Source: Oscillospiraceae bacterium (GTDB taxonomy: Bacteria; Bacillota; Clostridia; Oscillospirales; Oscillospiraceae). From it: a stretch of DNA of 64,000 bases. The translations under genes and the position numbers were made by a program. The notes beneath the pieces are model-generated. The model ran no database searches. It saw nothing but the letters and a program-made list of their open reading frames with translations, and had not been told where the DNA came from. The DNA is taken from NCBI GenBank assembly GCA_902795195.1, contig CADBKF010000002.1, forward strand, positions 1 to 64,000, written 5' to 3'. This document shows, in pieces, positions 2,959 to 24,281 of this stretch (position 1 is its first letter; the number at the start of each line of letters is the position of its first letter).

Positions 2959-3604
2959 TTGGCGTATGATAAAGCTGCGTATGTGCTGGCGGAAGCCGCC
3001 AGTACCGTGGAAAGAGCAAAACCTCGACCGCCAGATCGCGGCCTTTGTTGCGATGGGAGCCGAGGAACGAGAAATCATAACGGACAAGGAAAGCGGAAAG
3101 AGCCTGGACCGGCCAGGCTACCAGGCACTGAAAAACGTGATCCTCCGAAAAGGGGACACACTGGCGGTCAAATCTCTCGACCGCCTGAGCCGGAACAAGA
3201 CCGACATCCGCAACGAATTACAATTCTTCAAAGATCAGGGGATACGCCTGAAAGTGATTGACCTTCCGACAACCATGATGGATTTGCCGGAAGGTCAATC
3301 TTGGGTTTTCGAGATGGTGAACAATATCCTGATTGAGGTGATGGGAACCATTGCTGAGCAGGAGCGGCTGACCATCAAGCAGCGCCAGGCAGAGGGTATC
3401 GCGGCAGCCAAAGCCAAAGGGAAGAGATTCGGCCGCCCTGCTATCATCACCCCGGAGAATTGGCGGGAAGTGTACGCATCTTGGAAGGGCGGGGAGATTA
3501 CAGCAAAAACCGCTTTGGGATTGACCCATTTGAAACGGACCAGTTTCTATAAGCTCGTAAGGCTGACAGAGCAGAATAGCAGCGGATTTTCTGACTGTCC
3601 GTAA
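2959..3604 (+). pseudogene. Serine recombinase, N-terminus frameshifted
   Basis: From about 3010 the frame (EQNLDRQIAAF ... SLDRLSRNKTDI ... GKRFGRP ... FYKLVR) is a nearly complete resolvase-family serine recombinase with a C-terminal HTH. The N-terminal strand carrying the catalytic serine (expected YVRVSTxEQN) lies in another frame as AAYVLAEAASTVE from 2959. A perfect 7-bp inverted repeat with a 3-base loop (CTGGCGG/CCGCCAG, 2986-3002) replaces the two residues before the serine, and the frame shifts between GTGGAA and CAAAACCTCGAC. The gene is probably dead. An active enzyme would need programmed frameshifting, which nothing here suggests. The copy at 318-657 is its paralogous fragment. 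Confidence 0.65.
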
Positions 3605-3770
3605 AGGTAGACTTTTGCAACCAGAGCATTATAAACCATTATTTGCGTTCGTAAAACTCCGTTTATAGATAGCGAACATGTCCATAATTGCGGAGGCTTT
3701 TACGGGCAAAACAGGCAAAAACGGCTCCTGCTTATTTTCCCTTTGCAATCCTACAATTTTTCGCTCAGTG

Positions 3771-5160: not shown

Positions 5161-5406
5161 TGCTTTTTCTCCTTTCGGTTTTGTTCGGAAATAAGACTCC
5201 AGTTTACAGCATGGACTGGCAAGAACTATGCTTCTACCGGCAAATGCTTGTGTGATAATTCTTCGTTGTGGCAGACCCGTTTCTCGACCCTTTACGAAAA
5301 TAATCGCTAAAGATTATATGGATGACATAGACTATATCTTGTGGTTCACCTCGATGATATGGACTTTATACCACAATATATGCCGTATGCGACGTTCCGG
5401 ATCGTC

Positions 5407-5466
5407 TTCGAATCCACCTTCCCCCACCAGTCCCGGACGTGAAAACGTCCGGGATTTTCGTATTTT
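5407..5466 (+). other. Left attachment-site repeat (tRNA 3' end plus terminator)
   Basis: Bases 5407-5429 are TTCGAAT (T-loop), CCACC (T-stem 3' strand), TTCCCCC (acceptor 3' strand), A and CCA: the 3' end of a tRNA. A rho-independent hairpin follows, CCCGGACG/CGTCCGGG at 5432-5453 with a T-rich tail. The whole 60 bp recurs at 24177-24236 with one mismatch (5430). The tRNA body upstream is missing here. Apart from this site, 5161-5602 shows nothing gene-like. Confidence 0.85.
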
Positions 5467-5602
5467 AGCAGGAAAATGGCAGATTTTAAGCTCAAAAAGT
5501 TCTGCGTAGATACAGCCGGATTTGAATTACCCTTGTACTGACCCTTAAGCAAGCGTCAGAGCATGGCCTTTTTTGACCACAATAAACAGGATAACACATC
5601 CT

Positions 5603-6781
5603 TTACTGCGTCCGGTTTTCGTTCTCTTTTTGCAGCTTATGAATGAAGTCGTTCATGCGGTTGGCACTCTCCCGTTTCATTCCCTGGGTTGCGTGCGCGT
5701 AGGTAGCCAGCGTAAAGGCGGCAGTCGAGTGGCCGAGGTTTTCCTGCACGGTCTTGATATCGTCTCCGGCTTGCAGGCTGTTGACTGAAAACGTATGCCG
5801 CAGATCGTGAAACCGAAGATCCGGCATTCCCAGTTGGGTGACAATTCGCTTGAAGTTCATGTACAGCGTCTTGTTGTTGACATATCGCCCGTTCGGTGTA
5901 GTAAAGACAAGATTCTCAGCGTTGTCCCACAGTTCACCGGCAGCGTCTTTCCACCCTTCCTGCTGACCCTTTTGCAGTTGCAGCACGTTCATAACCTCCG
6001 CTGCAACGGTCAAGGATCTCGCTTTGCTGTTCTTCAAATTGGAAAAGTGGAACTCCTTTTCGCCCTTGGCTCGGTTGTGCTGCTTGTTGATCAGTAAGGT
6101 TCCCTTTTCAAAATCCACACAGTCCCAGGTCAACCCCAGCAGTTCTCCCTGCCGCAAGCCGGTAAACAGTGCAACAAACAGCGGGTATTCATAGGGATCG
6201 CCCTTAATCGCGTTCAAAAAATCCATCACGTCTGCGCTATCCATCGTCTGGAGCGGCTCTTTCTCGATCTTAGGGAGCACCGCGCCCTCGGAGGGATTGA
6301 TTCGTAAGTAGCCGTTGATCTTCGCTTGTTCCAAGGCCCCGTGCAGCGCACCGTGGATATTCTTGATCGTCTTTGGCGACAACCCCCGTTCTTTTACAAG
6401 GGCGTTATAAGTCTGCTGGATTTGGTGCGGCGTCAGCTTATTCAGCCGGATCTTTCCCAACGTTGGCTTCAGATGAACACGGATATGCTGTTCATAGCTT
6501 GCCCAGGTCTCCTTCCGGATGTTGATCTTGTATTCCTTGAGCCAGATGTCCAGCCAGTCGCCGACCGTCATTTCTGTGGGCGCAATGTAGGTCCCTTCCT
6601 GCAAGTCATTAAGAATCTTGGTCAGCTTCTGCCGGACCTCCCGTTTCGTCGAGCCATAAACAGAGTTCTGCTTCTGTTTCCCGTCTTCGGTATAACCGAC
6701 GGTGTATCTTCCCTCCCATCTTCCGTCACTTCGTTGACGGATGCTGCCGTTGCCGGCGTCATTTCGTTTTTTGGATGCCAA
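5603..6781 (-). CDS. int: Tyrosine recombinase (integrase)
   Basis: This 392-residue integrase of the phage/ICE type has an AP2-like arm-binding N-terminus (GSIRQRSDGRWEGRYT), a SAM-like core-binding domain (about 72-165) and a catalytic domain with R210 (TGLRQGE), H326 and R329 (HDLRH), H351 (LGHST) and the nucleophile Y361. It would join the element to the tRNA 3' end repeated at 5407 and 24177. The start is TTG with GAGGA six bases upstream. Its position beside the attachment repeat is typical. The full residue set suggests it is active. Confidence 0.93.
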   Translation of the reverse strand: MASKKRNDAGNGSIRQRSDGRWEGRYTVGYTEDGKQKQNSVYGSTKREVRQKLTKILNDLQEGTYIAPTEMTVGDWLDIWLKEYKINIRKETWASYEQHIRVHLKPTLGKIRLNKLTPHQIQQTYNALVKERGLSPKTIKNIHGALHGALEQAKINGYLRINPSEGAVLPKIEKEPLQTMDSADVMDFLNAIKGDPYEYPLFVALFTGLRQGELLGLTWDCVDFEKGTLLINKQHNRAKGEKEFHFSNLKNSKARSLTVAAEVMNVLQLQKGQQEGWKDAAGELWDNAENLVFTTPNGRYVNNKTLYMNFKRIVTQLGMPDLRFHDLRHTFSVNSLQAGDDIKTVQENLGHSTAAFTLATYAHATQGMKRESANRMNDFIHKLQKENENRTQ

Positions 6782-8056: not shown

Positions 8057-8266
8057 ATGAACAACAAATTTGAAGCCGCGCCGCTGGTGCTCAACGCAAC
8101 CCAGTTGGCACAAACCCTGGAAATCTCCCGTGCAAAAGCTTATCAGCTTATGCGCCGGGCGGACTTTCCGACGCTGATGATCGGCAAGCGAATGCTCGTC
8201 CCGAAAGACAAGCTGGCCGACTGGGTAGATCGCCATACAGGAGGTGGTCAAAATGTCAGCGTATGA
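8057..8266 (+). CDS. Excisionase-like helix-turn-helix protein
   Basis: The 69-residue protein has an AlpA/excisionase fold: LNATQLAQTLEISRAKAYQLMRRADFPTLMIGKRMLVPKDKLADWV. It is the counterpart of 4954-5160 in the left island. It overlaps the following ATPase gene by 14 bp, so the two are translationally coupled. It probably controls excision or early transcription of the element. Confidence 0.8.
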   Translation: MNNKFEAAPLVLNATQLAQTLEISRAKAYQLMRRADFPTLMIGKRMLVPKDKLADWVDRHTGGGQNVSV

Positions 8267-9440
8267 AAAAATGACCGTTCCGCTTCCGTCTGCGCCAACA
8301 GACGGGGAACAGTCATTTCTCAATGGTTCTGAAAACACTTTAGCACAGTTTGGCGAAAAATGCAACAACGATTTTTCGGAAAACACCTGCAATGTATCCG
8401 AGGAAGCCTGCGAAAAGCTCCTTCGGCGGATGCAGGACCCGGCGTACTTACCCACCATGTCTATGAGGGAACTCTACAGCACATCCTTCGCCGGCAGGCC
8501 GCCGATCATCGACGGTCTGCTCCACACGGGCGCCTACCTTTTGGTAGGTGCCCCGAAGGTGGGAAAATCCTTTCTGGTCGCACAGATCGCCTACCATGTG
8601 AGTACAGGTCAGCCGCTATGGGGGTATCCTGTCAAGCAGGGCACGGTTTTGTATCTTGCGCTGGAGGATGATTATCAACGACTACAGTCCCGGCTTTTTC
8701 GTATGTTCGGAAGCAACACCGCGGACAGGCTGCACTTCGCCACGGCTTCCAAGCAGCTTGGGAAAGGGCTGAGCGAACAGCTGAATCAGTTTTTACGACA
8801 GCACCCTGACACAAAGCTGGTGATCATTGATACGCTGCAGCGTGTCAGAGAAAGCACAGAGAGCTACAGCTATTCAAGCGACTATGACGCGACAGGGCAG
8901 CTCAAGCGCCTCGCCGATGCCAACAACATTTGTCTTTTGATCGTCCATCATACACGCAAGCAATTTGCCGAAGACAAGTTTGAAATGGTCAGCGGAACAA
9001 ACGGTTTGCTCGGTGCAGCGGATGGCGGCATGGTCTTATACAAGCAGAAGCGCACGGACGCCGACGCGATTTTGGACATTGTCGGCAGGGATCAGCAGGA
9101 TCAGCGATTGTATCTGGAGCGGAACCAGGAAACGCTTGCGTGGGAGCTGACGAAAACCGAGACGGCACTTTGGGAGGAACCCAAGGACCCATTGCTGGAA
9201 AAGCTCAATGCCTTCCTCACCCCGGAACAACCAATATGGTCCGGCAGCGCAACGGAGTTAAAGAGGCTTTTGGATTGGGAGGAAGCCGCCAACGCACTGA
9301 CTTATCACCTGAACGTCCGGCAGTCGGCGCTTTTTGAATTGCATCAGATTCGTTATTGCAATCAACACACGCGCAATGGCAGCCGGATCACTTTGCAGCG
9401 TGAATCATCGTCAGCGCTTCCAATAGATCACGAAGCGTGA
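8253..9440 (+). CDS. RepA-like RecA-fold ATPase/helicase
   Basis: The 395-residue P-loop NTPase of the RepA/DnaB-like (AAA_25) type has Walker A GAPKVGKS at 99-106, an ALEDD loop near 136-140 and Walker B LVIIDT at 189-194 followed by a conserved VHHTRK (about residue 235). Such proteins act as replication helicases or primase partners of plasmids and integrative elements. The ATG at 8253 follows GGAGGTGG, and the longer GTG start overlaps that site. Its stop codon lies inside the first of a set of 9-bp repeats, which fits a replication-initiation region. A role in element replication is inferred. Confidence 0.75.
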   Translation: MSAYEKMTVPLPSAPTDGEQSFLNGSENTLAQFGEKCNNDFSENTCNVSEEACEKLLRRMQDPAYLPTMSMRELYSTSFAGRPPIIDGLLHTGAYLLVGAPKVGKSFLVAQIAYHVSTGQPLWGYPVKQGTVLYLALEDDYQRLQSRLFRMFGSNTADRLHFATASKQLGKGLSEQLNQFLRQHPDTKLVIIDTLQRVRESTESYSYSSDYDATGQLKRLADANNICLLIVHHTRKQFAEDKFEMVSGTNGLLGAADGGMVLYKQKRTDADAILDIVGRDQQDQRLYLERNQETLAWELTKTETALWEEPKDPLLEKLNAFLTPEQPIWSGSATELKRLLDWEEAANALTYHLNVRQSALFELHQIRYCNQHTRNGSRITLQRESSSALPIDHEA

Positions 9441-9847: not shown

Positions 9848-9892
9848 GGTTTCAATTTTATTTGAACCGCCACAGGAGAGGAATTGTTGAAG

Positions 9893-10204
9893 ATGAAAGA
9901 GAAAGCCTATTTCGTTTTCCGCCCGCGCAGGATGGAAGACTTGCTGCCTGGAAACAAGAATGGAAAATGGCAGGAGTTTCAAATCGTGAAAACAATCCAT
10001 CTAGGCAAGCTCGACTTTGAAAACTTTGCAAACGATCTGCTGGTAGACCGGCAGTTTATCGAGGACAATGCGGTTCTTTGTCAGCAGCCAAACGACTGTC
10101 TGCTGGTCACAACAAGGGCCCACACCAACGAACTGCTGATTCTCCCGTGGAAAGGTAGTTACGTCCGCTTTGCAGCCTTGCGCCAGCGGATTCGCTTGTT
10201 GTGA
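9893..10204 (+). CDS. Small conserved element protein (DUF6329-like)
   Basis: The 103-residue protein begins MKEKAYFVFRPRRMEDLL and contains LDFENFANDLLVDRQFIEDNAVLC, a pattern I associate with small DUF6329-type proteins on Firmicutes integrative elements. That name is from memory. No catalytic motif is visible. AGGAGAGG lies 11 bases before the ATG, and a TTG at 9887 is an alternative start. It is divergent from the XRE regulator and probably controlled by it. Confidence 0.6.
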   Translation: MKEKAYFVFRPRRMEDLLPGNKNGKWQEFQIVKTIHLGKLDFENFANDLLVDRQFIEDNAVLCQQPNDCLLVTTRAHTNELLILPWKGSYVRFAALRQRIRLL

Positions 10205-10258
10205 TTGCAGGAAACCAGAGCTTTTATATTCTATTTCGTTACTGATAAGCTGGTCATG

Positions 10259-10787
10259 TGGACGTCCAGACACCTGTTTGCGATAGCTGGCAAGCAATGC
10301 ATCTGGACGTCCAGTCTTTCGTTTGCCGTTAGCGGCAAGCGATGCGTCTGGCTACCCAGAAGCAAAAATGCAAACCGGCATCTGCCTTCATTTGCATTTT
10401 CTCTTGTTGAGGCACAGCCCCAAACCCCAAAATGTGCCGATGGCACAGCTGCGCGATTTCAAGAAATCGCTGAAATGGAAATGGCCAAAGCCTCAACTAT
10501 ATACAAGGACACCCGTGCGCCATTTCACTTTTTTCATTCCGTGCCTCACGGAGAATCCAGCGTTTTACAAAAACGCGTCGCTGCGATCCCATCGCATTCT
10601 TGGGCTTGGGGGATTCCCCAACAAGGAAAAACGTCAGATCGCCAACAGACGATCCGACAGTTTTTCGCATGTGTATATACAGATGCATCGCTTGCCGGTT
10701 TTCCGGCAGAATGCATTTTGGATAGCCACAGGCCCAGCTTGCTTATAAGACCACTTTCAAGTCTTTTCCTGTGTCTTCTCTGTGGTC
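10259..10787. repeat. Dense array of short stem-loops, non-coding
   Basis: At least ten short perfect or near-perfect hairpins lie in series: 10259-10268 and 10303-10314 (GGACGTCC palindromes), 10323-10338, 10433-10447, 10453-10470, 10538-10552, 10560-10576, 10582-10596, 10606-10621, 10637-10654, 10693-10708 inside 10683-10716, and 10749-10787. A GGCAAGC-ATGC-TCTGG sequence occurs twice directly (10290-10306, 10334-10351) and once inverted (10680-10698). Open frames here do not look like proteins. It may be a structured RNA, a transfer or single-strand origin, or a composite of palindromic repeats. Confidence 0.65.
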
Positions 10788-10826
10788 ATGTGTGCTAGTA
10801 ATGTTGTTTAATTAAGGTATAACCAC

Positions 10827-10856: not shown

Positions 10857-10899
10857 AATAGCAAATGATAATCTTGCTTGATGCGACGAGGTGGTTATA

Positions 10900-13800
10900 A
10901 TGAATCTCATGGATGGAGGAAACCTTCAACAGTTGATAGATAGTCAAAAGAAACTCTCTGAATGCCTACTTCCGGAATTAGTTAAACGGCTGATTCTGAG
11001 CAGCCGTTCTAGCTTGGATAGCATTCGGTTCCCGGGCATGGACGACGTTTGGGCGCCGGGATTTGATGGCATTGTTGAATGCAGCTCAGGCTCAACTTAC
11101 GTTCCGGAAGGACTTAGCGCATGGGAATGTGGAGCGAATGCTGATTCTCTAAAAAAAGTAAATGAGGATTATCAAAAAAGAACTGATGATCCTCTTGGCG
11201 TTGAAAAGGCAGACACTACATTCTTCCTTGTTGTTCCCCGTGTTTGGGCGTATGACAGCCAAGGTGCTCCAAAAACAAAATGGGAGTCTGACCACCAGGG
11301 GGTTTGGAAAAATGTCCGTATCTATGATGCAATAACTCTCGCAGCTTGGCTCAATTCTGAGCCCACGGTGTGTGCGTGGTTTCTGGAACAATATGGACAA
11401 CTGGGTAGAATGGAGCTCTATTCTGTCACCAAAGCTTGGGAGAGATTTGCAAACTTAACGACGCCTGCGTTGTCGCATTCCATGTTCACAGAAGGTCGAG
11501 AAGAAGAATCGGCAAAGCTGATTGAGCAACTTAGTCAAAAGCAAATTCGCGTAAAAGCATCATCCTTCAAGGAAGCATATGGGTTTTGCCTTTCTGTTCT
11601 TTTACAAGATCAGGAGGCATCAAATAATGTTGTGGTTGTGGGCACAGAGGACACCTATTGCCGACTCTCTCGTGACTTAACCGGTAAAACATTTTTGTTA
11701 TCTTTTCCTTTCTCCGGTCAGGTTTCTGACGCCAACCGCACAATCGTTTGTTATTCAAGACAAGATATCGTTGCTCAAAATGGGATTGCTCTTCACCCGC
11801 TCTGGAAATCTCAATTTACAAAGGCTCTGCTAGACATGGGAATCCCTCAAGTGAAGGCTGATGAGCACTACGCTTTTTCGCACGGAAACATACTTGCCCT
11901 GATTCGCAGAATTCCTGGGAATGCAGCTGATCCTCGCCCGGGATGGGCATCTGATGACAATGCTACCAAGCTTCGTGCACTCATTTTTCTACGAAGCCAC
12001 TGTATTACAAATGAGCTGGAAAAGCAGGTGCTTGCAGAAATCAGCGGCACGGATTATTCCGAATTGCAAGATTGCTATGAATCTTTTTTGAATTTGGAAG
12101 ATCCTCCAGTAAAAAAGGTAAACAACATAATCGTTGTCATCAACCATGAAGAAGCATGGCTGACTCTGAATATCGACATTGCAGACAGAGTATCACAACG
12201 AGCATTTGAAGTAATCAAAAGATTGCTTTCCGAATGCAAGGATGCTGAGGATGCAAGCTATTCTCTGCAAGCTTCTATTATTCGCAGGCTGGCATTTAAT
12301 TATCTGTTTTACGCTGAAACAGGATCGGATGTAGATGAAATCAACAAGCAGATAGCTGAGATTCTATCTTTTTCTCAATATGAAGGCAGTAAGCAGATCG
12401 TGTTATCTATCTTACATCATTTTGCAGAGGCTGCTCCTAACGCTGTTCTATCGTTTTTGCAGGCCGAGTCCAAAACCGGTGTCATTTCGAAGGTTATTTC
12501 CGAAGAACGGAAATGGTCGAATTATTTTACCAGCGTTCGATCTGCTTTAGAGCAGCTTGTCGAAGTGGATAGCACAGCGATCCAAGCAAGCAGTATACTG
12601 TACGAGTTGAGTCAAGCACGAGGAAATCCTTCCAATGTTGAGTCATTACGGGGATGCTTGCGAGATACCCTGTGTCTATGGAGCAATCATGCGGCTTTGA
12701 CAGTATCGGAGAAAGCTGCACTTATCGTGAGATTTATTCAAAATAATCCGTCCTTTGGAGTACCGTTTGCGATTGAAGTATTGTGCGTTGAGTCTTTGGC
12801 GAGAGGTGTTCGATTTGGAAAGAAAGAACGCGAACGTGAGCCGGTTTTACGTGAAGAAGGGTATCAAGCCTATCTCAACATCTCTACGGCCTTACTTGAA
12901 AAATCAATCCAGATGCAGCACCTTGACTGGGTGGAAAAGGCTTTTCAGAACTGCTTTAAGCTTCCTTACGCAGCAATTTCCTCTGCAGCAGTTTTATTTG
13001 TAACGGCAGATTATACACCTGAACAATTGGTCCCTCTCTCGTTTATAGTTCGGAGGCAAATGTACGGTATTAAGAAATATATCTGGAAAGATAGAGAGCC
13101 CTGGCTCGAGCCACTTTCTGCATGGTTAGCACGCATGGATGGAGAAGATCCGGTTCTTCGTTATGGTTGGGTCTTTTATCAATACCATAAGGTACCCTGC
13201 CTCGAATTCCTCCAGAACCAATCAGAAAACTATTCAAAAAATATGCAGCGAGTAGAGGAGCTGCGAAAGGATACAATTGCTTCCGTTCGAGAAGCAGCAG
13301 GATCAGACGCCGTTGTCAGGCTGGTGCAGTGCATGGAGAATGACTTGGATTGGGGAATTTTCTTAGCTAGCGCACTAACAGATACCGAACATCAACCTGT
13401 TGCTGATACACTTGTTGAGCAAAATAAACTCAGGACTCTTTCTGGGTTACTGGACTCAATCGAACTATCCAAAGCAACGGAGATCTTTAAGGGTTTGTCC
13501 GAGGTGCTTCAAAGGCAGATGCTTCCACTTTTAGGCCGTGACGATATAGATTCTTGGCTCACATCGGAAGAATACGAGAACCTCTATTGGAAGCATAAGC
13601 GGCTGTACATTGATAGTGCGCGAAACACCGATGGGAAATACCAGAAAATATTAAAATACAATCCTTGTGGCGCCCTTCCCCTTTTTCTGCATGAAAATTT
13701 TGATCCAGAGAACTCAGAGTCAAATAGAGTCCTTTATGAAGTGTTCCGCGCAATCGCAGGCACTGATTACATCTCTGATCCCGGCTTACTTGCACATTTT

Positions 13801-14406
13801 GTGCAGGTATTTGACATGAAGTTTTATACAGACGAATGGGCCGAGCTGTGCCTTCGATTATATAACAAGAAGGCTTTCGGAAAGCAATATAATTACTATC
13901 CCACATGCTTGCAAATCTATTTCTATCGCCACCCTGAAAAAGCTGTTGAGTTCTTCAATGCCGACGAGAATCTTTTCTGGGAGCATTTCACTTATCATTA
14001 CAGCATTCCAGAAGAAGCGTATGAGGATTTGGAATTATTCGTATCATGGTGTGATTCAATTTACAGGTCGATTGAGGCTGGTCCTGAAGCCCTTGCATAT
14101 GTATTTGGCCGAACAAAAAACGGATCTGACGGGATATTTCCACATGAATTTGTGCGGGAAGCTTTGGAAAGATATAGCAACGCCAAATTTACCGTAAGAG
14201 TTGCAAATGCTAAACAATCAGCTGGCGATATGCGAATTGTGAACGATGGCTTATATGAGCATAAAACCGCCGAGAAATACAGGCAACAGGCTAGATCATT
14301 GGAACTACGCTACCCTCAAACAGCAAGTATTTTGAAATATCTTGCCGCATTCCTTGATTGGGAGTCACGCGAAGATCTGGAGTACGCCGAGCTCTTTCCG
14401 GGATAG
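10900..14406 (+). CDS. Large protein with nuclease-like N-terminus and helical body
   Basis: This 1168-residue protein is not confidently assignable. Residues ~25-165 look like a PD-(D/E)XK-type nuclease domain: PGFDGIVE (D56, E60), then VPEGLSAWECGAN (E76), K85/K86, DYQKRTDDPLG, and FFLVVPRVW before a VRIYDAITLAAWL strand-helix. Residues ~215-345 resemble an NTPase-like middle without a true Walker A (the only GKT, 262-264, is not preceded by GxxxxG), with GNILALIRR and PGWA near 329-350. The remaining ~800 residues appear alpha-helical and repeat-like. The layout (nuclease, degenerate STAND-like core, helical sensor) recalls large single-protein anti-phage effectors. GAGGTGG precedes the ATG. 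It lies immediately upstream of a type I restriction system on the same strand. Function is inferred, not shown. Confidence 0.6.
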   Translation: MNLMDGGNLQQLIDSQKKLSECLLPELVKRLILSSRSSLDSIRFPGMDDVWAPGFDGIVECSSGSTYVPEGLSAWECGANADSLKKVNEDYQKRTDDPLGVEKADTTFFLVVPRVWAYDSQGAPKTKWESDHQGVWKNVRIYDAITLAAWLNSEPTVCAWFLEQYGQLGRMELYSVTKAWERFANLTTPALSHSMFTEGREEESAKLIEQLSQKQIRVKASSFKEAYGFCLSVLLQDQEASNNVVVVGTEDTYCRLSRDLTGKTFLLSFPFSGQVSDANRTIVCYSRQDIVAQNGIALHPLWKSQFTKALLDMGIPQVKADEHYAFSHGNILALIRRIPGNAADPRPGWASDDNATKLRALIFLRSHCITNELEKQVLAEISGTDYSELQDCYESFLNLEDPPVKKVNNIIVVINHEEAWLTLNIDIADRVSQRAFEVIKRLLSECKDAEDASYSLQASIIRRLAFNYLFYAETGSDVDEINKQIAEILSFSQYEGSKQIVLSILHHFAEAAPNAVLSFLQAESKTGVISKVISEERKWSNYFTSVRSALEQLVEVDSTAIQASSILYELSQARGNPSNVESLRGCLRDTLCLWSNHAALTVSEKAALIVRFIQNNPSFGVPFAIEVLCVESLARGVRFGKKEREREPVLREEGYQAYLNISTALLEKSIQMQHLDWVEKAFQNCFKLPYAAISSAAVLFVTADYTPEQLVPLSFIVRRQMYGIKKYIWKDREPWLEPLSAWLARMDGEDPVLRYGWVFYQYHKVPCLEFLQNQSENYSKNMQRVEELRKDTIASVREAAGSDAVVRLVQCMENDLDWGIFLASALTDTEHQPVADTLVEQNKLRTLSGLLDSIELSKATEIFKGLSEVLQRQMLPLLGRDDIDSWLTSEEYENLYWKHKRLYIDSARNTDGKYQKILKYNPCGALPLFLHENFDPENSESNRVLYEVFRAIAGTDYISDPGLLAHFVQVFDMKFYTDEWAELCLRLYNKKAFGKQYNYYPTCLQIYFYRHPEKAVEFFNADENLFWEHFTYHYSIPEEAYEDLELFVSWCDSIYRSIEAGPEALAYVFGRTKNGSDGIFPHEFVREALERYSNAKFTVRVANAKQSAGDMRIVNDGLYEHKTAEKYRQQARSLELRYPQTASILKYLAAFLDWESREDLEYAELFPG

Positions 14407-14471
14407 CCATACATGGTTTACCCTTCGTTCGTGCCAAAAATATTATTATACTTGTCCCATCAGAATCGCGG

Positions 14472-14499
14472 TTGCATTTCCGACAAAAAACAGTATAAT
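14472..14499 (+). promoter_or_regulatory. Promoter upstream of hsdR
   Basis: TTGCAT at 14472-14477 and a perfect TATAAT at 14494-14499 are 16 bp apart, about 45 bp before the hsdR start. It lets the restriction operon be expressed separately from the upstream gene. Confidence 0.6.
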
Positions 14500-14550
14500 A
14501 TTCTTGGGTATATATACTGAATGCAAGACTATTGAAAGGATCTGACTGCA

Positions 14551-17307
14551 ATGCTTCCCGAAGAAAAAGCAAGGCTTAAAATCGATAAGCAGCTGATTAA
14601 TGCAGGCTGGGATGTCGTTTCCAGGGATGAGTATGTACCACAAAGCTCGTCCGCGGTAAAAGAAGCGCTCATGCTAGGCAACACCGAAAGTGACTACCTG
14701 CTCTTTGTGGATGACAAAGCGATTGCTGTTCTTGAAGCAAAGCGTGAAGAAAACCCATTGGGCGTGGATGTGCAGGGGCAGGCAGAGGACTATGCCTGCA
14801 ATCCGCAGGATTGGTATGGAGTTTGGTTCCCAGATCAAATCCCCCTGGTGTATCTTGCAAATGGCAAGAAGATTCTCTTCAGGAACATGCTGCATCCGGG
14901 AAGCGACTATGTTGAGCTTTCAGCTATGCATTCCCCGAAGAAAATGCTGCAATTGATTGGTCAAGTCTCCGAATATGGTGCTCTGCCCCGATTGGATCAA
15001 CGCGGGCTGCGTGAATGCCAGTACCGAGCTGAGCGCAAATTTGAGGAAAACTTAAAAGAGGGAAAGAAAAAGAACCTTGCCATTTTGGCGACCGGTTCTG
15101 GGAAAACATACCTGGCTTGCTTGGCAAGCTATCGGTTGTTGAATTATACACCGGCTAATAGGGTTCTGTTTCTTGCAGATAGAAATAACCTTGCGCGTCA
15201 GGCCTTATCGGAGTTCTCCACGTTCTCCCGCACAGAGGGTCAACAGGATATGAGTTCTTTGTATGTGATAAACCAGCTAAAGAAGAACGAAGATATCTCA
15301 GCCGATATTGTGATCTCAACGATACAGAAGCTGTATGCGGTTTTAACTGGAAAAACGCTTTCTAATGACGAAAGTGAAGACGCCGAAGATGAGAGAAATA
15401 TCATAGAGGAAGAAAAAGACGACAAGAAGATCGTTCAGCTCGACGAGAATCTGACACTGCCGCCCGATTACTTCCAGCTTATCATCGTGGACGAATGCCA
15501 CAGATCCATTTATGGAAAATGGCGAGCTGTGCTGGATTACTTCTCTTCCGCAATCGTTCTCGGTTTGACCGCTACGCCGACGCCAGAGGCCCTTGCGTTC
15601 TTTGATAATAACAAAGTTGCGGAGTATGGGATCGAAGAATCCGAAGTGGATGGCGTGAACGTCCCACCGCGTGTATATCGGATTATTACGAAGGTCACTG
15701 AGCATGGCGGGGCCATCAAGGCAGGCACAAAAGTTAAGGAGAAATCGCGCCGGACGGGTAAAGAAGCCAGCTATAATGTTGCGCATCGCGTAGATTATGG
15801 CTCCAACGAGCTCGATCGCTCCGTTGTAAACCCGGAGCAAATTCGAGAGGTTTTGGAAGCATATAAGAAAGCCATCTATTCAGAGCTATATCCCGATCGA
15901 GAGGAAAAATGGCAGTATGTTCCCAAGACTTTGATCTTCGCCAAAGACGATAACCATGCAACGGAAATCGTTGAAGCGGTAAAAGAAGTGTTTGGCTCCG
16001 TGTTTGAAGATGGAGAAGTACCGGAACATTTCGTTCAAAAAATCACATATACAGCGGGAGACTCAAACCAGCTGATCAATAATCTCCGAACCACAAAGGA
16101 TTTTCGAATTGCGGTGACTGTAACCCTGGTTGCAACCGGAACGGATGTAAAGCCTCTGGAAGTTGTCCTGTTTATGAAGGACGTGCATTCTGACGTGCTG
16201 TACACGCAGATGAAGGGGCGCGGCTGCCGTCGCATTGATGATGACAAGCTGCGGGAAGTCACACCGAATGCCAACACAAAGGATTGCTATTACATTGTGG
16301 ATGCGGTTGGCGTTACGGAATCGACGAAGGTCATTCCACATCCGGTCATGGGAAACAACTCCGGCGTCAAACTGCTTCCCTTGGACAAGCTGCTTGAGCA
16401 TCTGGCGCACAATGAGTTGAGCGATGAAAACCTGTGGCTTCTCCGGGATTATTGCTCTTCCATCCATCGGCGCTATGAAAACAACGCCCTCTTTGGGCGG
16501 CATCTGGATTCCTTTATCAATTCATTCGGCTTTACACCGAGAACAATCGCCTTCAACATCCAGCAAGCATACGATGCAGAGATTCTGCCGCCGTTTGTAA
16601 GTCCTTCACAGGACAATACAGACCGTATGACCTTGATTTACGATCTGATCACCAGTGTTCCCGCCCGGCGCAAGCTGCTGGAGATGCAAAAGGGCTACGT
16701 TGTGACGACCGAAGAAGATCCGGACGAGCTGATTTACGCAGGGTTCTCCAAAGAAACGGCGAAGTCTTTCATAGAGAACTTTGAAAAGTATTTGGAAGAA
16801 AATAAGGACAGCATCGAGGCGCTGCGGATCATTTATAATTCTGAAGATACCGTCATCACACACAGCATGCTGGTAGATCTGCGGGATCGTCTGCTGGCAG
16901 AAAGCCGCCAATACAGCGCATTTCAGATCTGGAAGAATTATCGTGTGCTGGATGAAGTCGGCAATGTGGACGAATTGGATATGAAGACCAATGTCAACAT
17001 GCTGACCAACCTGATTCAGATCGTGCGCTATGCGTACAAGAAGAACCAAAAGCTCAGCAGCCTGCTCAAAGGCTATGCGCAGCGTTTCAACCTGTACTGC
17101 GGTCAGGCACAGCGTGAACTTTCCGAAGACCAAAAAGAAATCATGCGGCGGATTGCGGACTATGTCATCCATGGTGGTGCGATCTCCGTCATGGAGTTGA
17201 ACGAAATTGATACGGACCTCTGGCGGAAGGGTGTTACCCGCTTTGGTGCATCCACGCTGGGAGAGGAAATGCAGGTTATGTCAAAATTCCTGCTGAAAGC
17301 AGCATAA
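14551..17307 (+). CDS. hsdR: Type I restriction enzyme, R subunit
   Basis: The 918-residue HsdR provides ATP-driven DNA translocation and cleavage for the HsdRMS complex. The N-terminal nuclease motif is D48 (ESDYLL) with E62-A-K64 (VLEAKRE). The helicase core has Walker A ATGSGKT (180-186), DECH (314-317) and GLTATPT (338-344). Motif VI-like residues appear at QMKGRGCRR. The C-terminal ~300 residues match the EcoEI-type coupling domain. GAAAGGA precedes the ATG. hsdM starts 13 bp after its stop. Length and motifs are complete, so it should be functional. Confidence 0.95.
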   Translation: MLPEEKARLKIDKQLINAGWDVVSRDEYVPQSSSAVKEALMLGNTESDYLLFVDDKAIAVLEAKREENPLGVDVQGQAEDYACNPQDWYGVWFPDQIPLVYLANGKKILFRNMLHPGSDYVELSAMHSPKKMLQLIGQVSEYGALPRLDQRGLRECQYRAERKFEENLKEGKKKNLAILATGSGKTYLACLASYRLLNYTPANRVLFLADRNNLARQALSEFSTFSRTEGQQDMSSLYVINQLKKNEDISADIVISTIQKLYAVLTGKTLSNDESEDAEDERNIIEEEKDDKKIVQLDENLTLPPDYFQLIIVDECHRSIYGKWRAVLDYFSSAIVLGLTATPTPEALAFFDNNKVAEYGIEESEVDGVNVPPRVYRIITKVTEHGGAIKAGTKVKEKSRRTGKEASYNVAHRVDYGSNELDRSVVNPEQIREVLEAYKKAIYSELYPDREEKWQYVPKTLIFAKDDNHATEIVEAVKEVFGSVFEDGEVPEHFVQKITYTAGDSNQLINNLRTTKDFRIAVTVTLVATGTDVKPLEVVLFMKDVHSDVLYTQMKGRGCRRIDDDKLREVTPNANTKDCYYIVDAVGVTESTKVIPHPVMGNNSGVKLLPLDKLLEHLAHNELSDENLWLLRDYCSSIHRRYENNALFGRHLDSFINSFGFTPRTIAFNIQQAYDAEILPPFVSPSQDNTDRMTLIYDLITSVPARRKLLEMQKGYVVTTEEDPDELIYAGFSKETAKSFIENFEKYLEENKDSIEALRIIYNSEDTVITHSMLVDLRDRLLAESRQYSAFQIWKNYRVLDEVGNVDELDMKTNVNMLTNLIQIVRYAYKKNQKLSSLLKGYAQRFNLYCGQAQRELSEDQKEIMRRIADYVIHGGAISVMELNEIDTDLWRKGVTRFGASTLGEEMQVMSKFLLKAA

Positions 17308-17314
17308 GAGGTAG

Positions 17315-20106
<2,792 letters not shown>

Positions 20107-24028: not shown

Positions 24029-24176
24029 AGGTGATTTCTCCTTACCCTTGACGTTACCCTTAACGCAAGGAAAAATAATAGAATTAGAAGACTATAAAAT
24101 ACGAAATTCACCCGAAAACAAAACTGATTTACACATTATTGTACATAAAATGTCATAAAAAACGTGATTTCAAGTG

Positions 24177-24236
24177 TTCGAATCCACCTTCCCCCACCAA
24201 TCCCGGACGTGAAAACGTCCGGGATTTTCGTATTTT
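24177..24236 (+). other. Right attachment-site repeat (tRNA 3' end plus terminator)
   Basis: This copy matches 59 of 60 bases of 5407-5466: tRNA 3' end at 24177-24199 and terminator hairpin at 24202-24223 with a T-rich tail. It marks the right end of the integrative element. The sequence beyond it looks like host chromosome. The rest of 24029-24176 is AT-rich and holds no visible gene. Confidence 0.85.
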
Positions 24237-24281
24237 TACGGGAAAACAGAGGATTTTTGATACAAAAAAGAAGGAGAGTGC

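Follow-up and report, generated by a model that had tools for sequence, protein, structure and literature searches.

The transfer origin (oriT) of Tn1549 is served by a MOBP relaxase together with MobC, and its nic site is RYGCTTG↓C, with the arrow marking the nick; the nic site of pRJ6 (MOBP7) is TGCTTG↓CCA (PMC7755788). Orphan oriTs, oriT-only islands, and oriTs with branched hairpins are already known (PMC4652767). As far as the accessible text of these reports goes, iOriT and MGI islands (PMC11389934, PMC5704250) are integrative and carry an oriT with no relaxase, and the relaxase-less oriT-bearing plasmids of S. aureus (O'Brien 2015, PMC4652767) have a predicted branched single-stranded DNA (ssDNA) hairpin beside the nic core. 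In ICEBs1, the single-strand origin (sso) sso1 directly follows the relaxase gene nicK (PMC4595007). Relaxase-less mobilizable islands are hard to recognize because oriT sequence diverges.

In the window, the whole stretch of 64,000 nucleotides analyzed here, we found a block of hairpins in an island that lacks a relaxase. We consider it very probable that each half of this block is a Tn1549-type oriT used by MobA/VirD2-like (MOBP) relaxases. This reading draws on structure, covariation, polarity, the nic match, homology with Tn1549 oriT, att repeats, and the lack of a detected cognate relaxase; from these we infer nicking, transfer, and the use of both origins. The block shares with Tn1549 oriT the nic, the nic-proximal hairpin, a core of helices P3, P4, and P7 and, in relatives, the position. 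It differs in that mobC and the relaxase are absent in cis, in that it holds two complete inverted origins plus partial units, and in that its modules have extra hairpins, P1 and P2, that are missing in mobC-proximal copies. The island is of the kind of the iOriT hitchhikers (PMC11389934) and of scenario IV of PMC5704250; whereas MGI islands were recognized, in the accessible text, by similarity to a known oriT, here the sequence has diverged and the structure has been kept. Divergent oriT pairs are not described in the accessible text on iOriT/MGI islands or the O'Brien plasmids, and a targeted search with partial coverage of the open literature returned neither a covariation-based description of a Tn1549-type oriT nor a report of divergent oriT pairs.

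A hairpin block in a tRNA-Tyr island

The block lies between a short gene (9884-10204) and the cargo genes. An earlier note, made from the sequence alone, had placed serial short hairpins at 10259-10787. We confirmed these, detecting 39 inverted-repeat pairs at the settings used, and the placement was good, the organized part being about 10257-10742. A 591-nt stretch folds at -228.2 kcal/mol compared with a shuffled mean of -167.7 (sd 8.2; z = -7.4), and 0/100 shuffles were as good. The unit GGCAAGC-ATGC-TCTGG, described as present twice direct and once inverted, does occur so, at 10289 and 10334 (+) and at 10679 (-), and comprises one half of the P5 hairpin together with the nic-like tail. 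Doubts about coding were also borne out. The ORFs that cross the block, of 197 aa (10205-10798) and 141 aa (10323-10748), look like chance; the first was unmatched in Pfam and the second had a single nonsignificant match. We rejected a coding reading, Pfam having given no credible family for either. The conserved protein frame that the note had raised as a counter-case was not found: the stems vary through compensatory changes and through indels whose lengths are not divisible by three, so no such frame runs through the block.

The block consists of two complete copies, W1 and W2, of one module of about 145 nt, arranged head to head with the heads 84 bp apart, and outward of each lies a partial P5-plus-tail unit (Table 1). 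The nested palindromic repeat among the candidates of the earlier note is thus accounted for by a pair of inverted oriT modules with partial repeats of the nic-proximal hairpin. The 20-nt P5 palindrome of the left partial unit recurs exactly in two further islands of this genome. With DNA parameters W1 folds as modeled (z = -3.9), and the fold of W2 has z = -5.4. W1 is 58% like W2, and neither is more than 66% like any other module; this divergence leaves decay or altered specificity possible.

Table 1. Features of the island and its hairpin block, with positions in the window
Feature	Position	Strand	Support
attL: 3' end of tRNA-Tyr gene (TTCGAATCCACCTTCCCCCACCA) plus terminator	5404..5487	+	84-bp direct repeat, 89% identical to 24174-24257
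Island tyrosine integrase, adjoining attL	5606..6781	-	PF00589 E 7.9e-25; Phage_int_SAM_3 E 1.3e-18
RepA/DnaB-like AAA_25 ATPase	8244..9440	+	PF13481 E 1.2e-29
Outermost partial P5-like palindrome (TGTGGACGTCCAGA)	10257..10270	-	sequence
Extra partial unit, P5 hairpin plus nic-like tail (minus strand ...GCATTGCTTG↓CC), left-facing	10289..10318	-	sequence
Predicted oriT module W1 (P1-P2-P3-P4-P5-tail)	10332..10473	-	R1 114.9 bits, E 9.1e-32; R2 98 bits
W1 predicted nick GCTTG↓C	between 10336 and 10335	-	
Spacer between heads, GTGCGCC near 10515 weakly MOBQ-nic-like	10474..10556	.	sequence
Predicted oriT module W2	10557..10698	+	R1 124.8 bits, E 9.6e-35; R2 93.3 bits
W2 predicted nick GCTTG↓C	between 10694 and 10695	+	
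Degenerate outer P5-plus-tail unit (CCCAGCTTGC), right-facing	10716..10742	+	sequence; inverted repeat
Cargo: 1171-aa protein, then HsdR, HsdM, HsdS (Type I restriction-modification)	10891..20106	+	
attR: second copy of tRNA-Tyr 3' end	24174..24257	+	84-bp direct repeat

The island, integrated at tRNA-Tyr, spans about 18.8 kb, and its genes encode an integrase, an AAA_25 ATPase, and a Type I restriction-modification system. Its att sequence was found within or adjoining intact tRNA-Tyr(gta) genes of four congeners. Homologues of the AAA_25 ATPase are also encoded beside modules at two other loci (L055 and L058), and the interior of the island also holds DUF6076 and further ATPases. We searched for relaxases of the PF03432 and MobA_MobL families. 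At E 1e-6, the whole genome, which is 92.8% complete, yielded no PF03432 relaxase, and the one MobA_MobL relaxase is encoded off the island, on another contig (C19). The island is a putative oriT-only integrative mobilizable element of the iOriT kind, and it probably travels between bacteria via the machinery of another element.

Three further observations concern this genome. The 1171-aa protein (10891-14406), encoded directly after the block, had no Pfam, NCBIfam, or PADLOC match and is a candidate defense or island gene. At L154, about 3560-3610 (G000 contig 19), a textbook MOBQ origin, an inverted repeat plus TAAGTGCGCCCT, lies upstream of the MobA_MobL relaxase gene. Left of the island, a 268-bp direct repeat (85%; 318-586 and 3242-3509) flanks a PfkB-family gene and overlaps a resolvase-family gene; these repeats possibly mark a second, nested element.

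A conserved fold that ends in a nic motif

The module was recognized from short matches elsewhere when this genome and 22 congeners were searched at the DNA level. From 5' to 3' it reads P1, CAGC, P2, P3, CAAGC, P4, P5, NNY, GCTTGC, where P1 is GCGATTT/AAATCGC in the genus of the window, P2 is TGTGCC/GGCACA, P3 is TTGGG/CCCAA, P4 is a long hairpin of free sequence, and P5 is GCATSTG...CASATGC. A further helix, P7, can form between the CAAGC that follows P3 and the terminal GCTTG, and it encloses P4 and P5. The core of the oriT module is P3, P4, P5, and P7; many copies also have P1 and P2, which the copies upstream of mobC lack. We rejected P4 as an intrinsic terminator, its T-run being missing from many copies. 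We likewise rejected P5 as a perfect double-stranded palindrome: it is one in several copies from the same genus, but family copies have unpaired GGGA-type loops.

To follow the fold beyond sequence similarity, we used a covariance model built from six copies that include W1 and W2 (R1) and a second model (R2). R1 found further copies in the genus, with E down to 1e-42 (training copies included). The module was present in 100/300 genomes and 53/106 genera in a scan of the family, and in 80/391 genomes and 64/223 genera in a scan of the class. In an alignment of 28 copies, 97.7% of cells were paired compared with 71.7% after shuffling, with 288 double-change cells and double changes in 30 of the 40 pairs. 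In 102 copies (100 distinct), again over 40 pairs, 95.6% of cells were paired compared with 66.9% after shuffling (0/500 shuffles as high), and there were 1,052 double compensatory cells compared with 307 in shuffles. The earlier note had proposed covariation in homologues as a check; it was strongly passed and indicates a single-strand structure, not RNA. In blastn searches of plasmid and phage collections, neither the block nor one relative gave a match, which is the expected outcome where structure persists and sequence does not. The fold outlasts the sequence, so a covariance model detects Tn1549-type origins class-wide and flags defense and other islands as probable hitchhikers.

P5, which sits 3 nt before GCTTG, covaries at 7/7 pairs and is 98.1% paired in the 102-copy alignment. 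At paired positions we counted 42 G-T compared with 11 A-C cells (p = 2e-5), an excess showing that the folding strand is the one that ends in GCTTGC. This tail is found in 96/102 modules, nearly always after a pyrimidine, and in W1 and W2 it reads TCGCTTGCC. The conserved YGCTTGC matches the published nic of Tn1549, RYGCTTG↓C, with the leading purine missing in most modules, and the end of the P7 helix coincides exactly with the published YGCTTG↓C nick site. P7, which was not in the model behind the first alignment, covaries at one pair: CAAGC/GCTTG becomes CGAGC/GCTCG in three modules, which come from two genomes, and a single wobble intermediate was seen. This covariation is only suggestive of the helix.

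Position and polarity relative to relaxase genes

We found 38 of 108 modules, from 24 genomes, within 5 kb of a gene for a MobA/VirD2-like relaxase (PF03432). The relaxase gene was on the 5' side of the module in 38/38 cases, whichever its strand, so the tail always points away from it. Transfer genes must enter last when DNA is transferred from an oriT, and this is the direction required of one. In 22 of the 38, the relaxase gene is on the same strand and the module typically follows directly after its stop codon, beginning 11-23 nt past it at several loci. The other 16 are on the opposite strand, and in the 12 of these that we inspected, the relaxase gene is preceded by a mobC-like reading frame, with the module at the start of that frame. 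R2 matches also lie upstream of annotated mobC at three loci (L099, L100, and L101). At one of these, the Tn1549-type element of pMG2200 (L099), R2 matched immediately upstream of mobC-relaxase (E 5e-15, tail TATGCTTGC), and unconstrained DNA folding of this copy yields P3, P7, P4, and P5. Together with the published nic, this match identifies the module as a Tn1549-type oriT. A transfer origin for an element without its own relaxase, one of the candidates in the earlier note, is therefore the option favored by the evidence.

The same-strand copies occupy the position of sso1 in ICEBs1 (PMC4595007), which likewise has multiple hairpins, is strand specific, and lies directly downstream of a relaxase gene. 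This would fit a single-strand origin, with hairpins from which synthesis of the second strand is primed once a strand has been transferred. Of the relaxase-linked copies, 22 have the ICEBs1-like position and 16 do not. The relaxase of ICEBs1 is of another family, and sso1 is not a nic site. Against an sso, the most conserved sequence of the module is the nic motif, copies on the opposite strand are found upstream of mobC, where an oriT canonically lies, and the copy on the Tn1549-type element covers the oriT region of that element. We consider an sso unlikely as the identity of the module, although such a function could coexist in P1-P4.

A structured noncoding RNA transcribed through the module, either a riboregulator or a 3'-UTR element, would account for the strong covariation with G-U-type wobbles and for the 22 modules that follow a relaxase gene on its own strand. 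It does not account for the 16 on the opposite strand, for which a 3'-UTR RNA is inadequate as an explanation, or for the known oriT nic at which the module ends, and P4 is not a terminator in many copies. For the window and its relatives, Rfam gave no match at the gathering score and none specific at a relaxed threshold. The fixed position and polarity relative to relaxases, the nic at the 3' end, and the match to Tn1549 oriT argue that the fold forms in ssDNA at an oriT. Thus, the large structured RNA that the earlier note had listed was not borne out, and we hold any such RNA to be very improbable.

The closest modules outside this genome, 57-64% alike and from the same genus, include relaxase-linked ones (G002 and G015). 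Since no cognate relaxase was detected in the genome, the helper must come from elsewhere, and by this resemblance a relaxase of the G002/G015 type would be plausible.

Head-to-head pairs

Defining a pair as any two modules less than 1.5 kb apart, we found 18 close pairs, of which 16 were head to head with tails outward (spacings of 38-674 nt), 2 were in the reverse arrangement, and none was in tandem. A relaxase gene lay within 5 kb of 0/18 paired compared with 38/90 single modules (24 genomes; p = 2e-4, the modules being not fully independent). A large serine recombinase was encoded near 6/7 other pair loci examined; at the seventh (L068), on a short contig, there was none among its three scanned proteins. 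Two pair loci also carry a nearby RepA_N or Viral_Rep gene. Pair mates are 40-68% identical, and several are closer to mates of other pairs. Therefore, the paired arrangement is old and has been retained, and did not arise by a recent inverted duplication. Dispersal by copying, without retention for transfer, as mobile palindromic repeats (REP/MITE-like) or as a recombinase-binding array, would explain several copies per genome, inverted pairs, partial units, and frequent neighboring site-specific recombinases, but mates this different are not recent copies, the stems covary, the relaxase polarity is fixed (38/38), and tails-inward pairs, unexpected of terminal repeats, exist (G249), so we rejected this reading as scarcely credible.

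For a Tn1549-type oriT pair, we propose that the integrase would excise the island as a circle and that a MOBP relaxase of a co-resident element would recognize the folded P5 and tail. The borrowed relaxase would nick GCTTG↓C and pilot the strand out through a secretion channel that is also borrowed. Possible roles of P1-P4 are in termination, in relaxosome assembly or, sso-like, in second-strand synthesis. With two complete outward-facing origins, either strand would be transferable; strand choice and dual relaxase specificity are two ideas for why both would be kept. A more tentative proposal, which we regard as possible but short of probable, is that relaxase-less integrative elements of the class have maintained the divergent oriT pair as an architecture, in which two differently evolved Tn1549-type origins, placed head to head, would allow transfer of either strand or two relaxase specificities, and that the invariant upstream CAAGC serves as a guide within the module, pairing with GCTTG so that the nick falls where the helix ends. 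The recurrence of outward pairs, maintained as two distinct lineages, poses a testable question: why an element has two opposed origins.

Some pair spacers contain a further motif. In five (L068, L069, L073, L103, and L104), an inverted repeat is followed by a MOBQ-nic-like TGCGCC site (AAGTGCGCC in two), and in the window spacer GTGCGCC, at about 10515, has no clear repeat. The spacers are possible dual-specificity transfer sites by these motifs. As a second, MOBQ origin, the spacer is suggestive in the five G312/G236 pairs and weak in the window, and we did not adopt it.

Two further arrangements were observed. At L011 (4805-6119, G000 contig 11, with AbiEii and Nmad3 genes), a further locus of this genome, two modules, one of them weak, lie 1 kb apart with tails facing. 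The Tn1549-type element of pMG2200 (NC_011642.1) has a second, weaker oriT-like match (L099 541-673, E 1.9e-8, tail TTGCTTGCCAG) between the vanR-B side and the mobilization genes, and it may thus carry two oriT-like sites.
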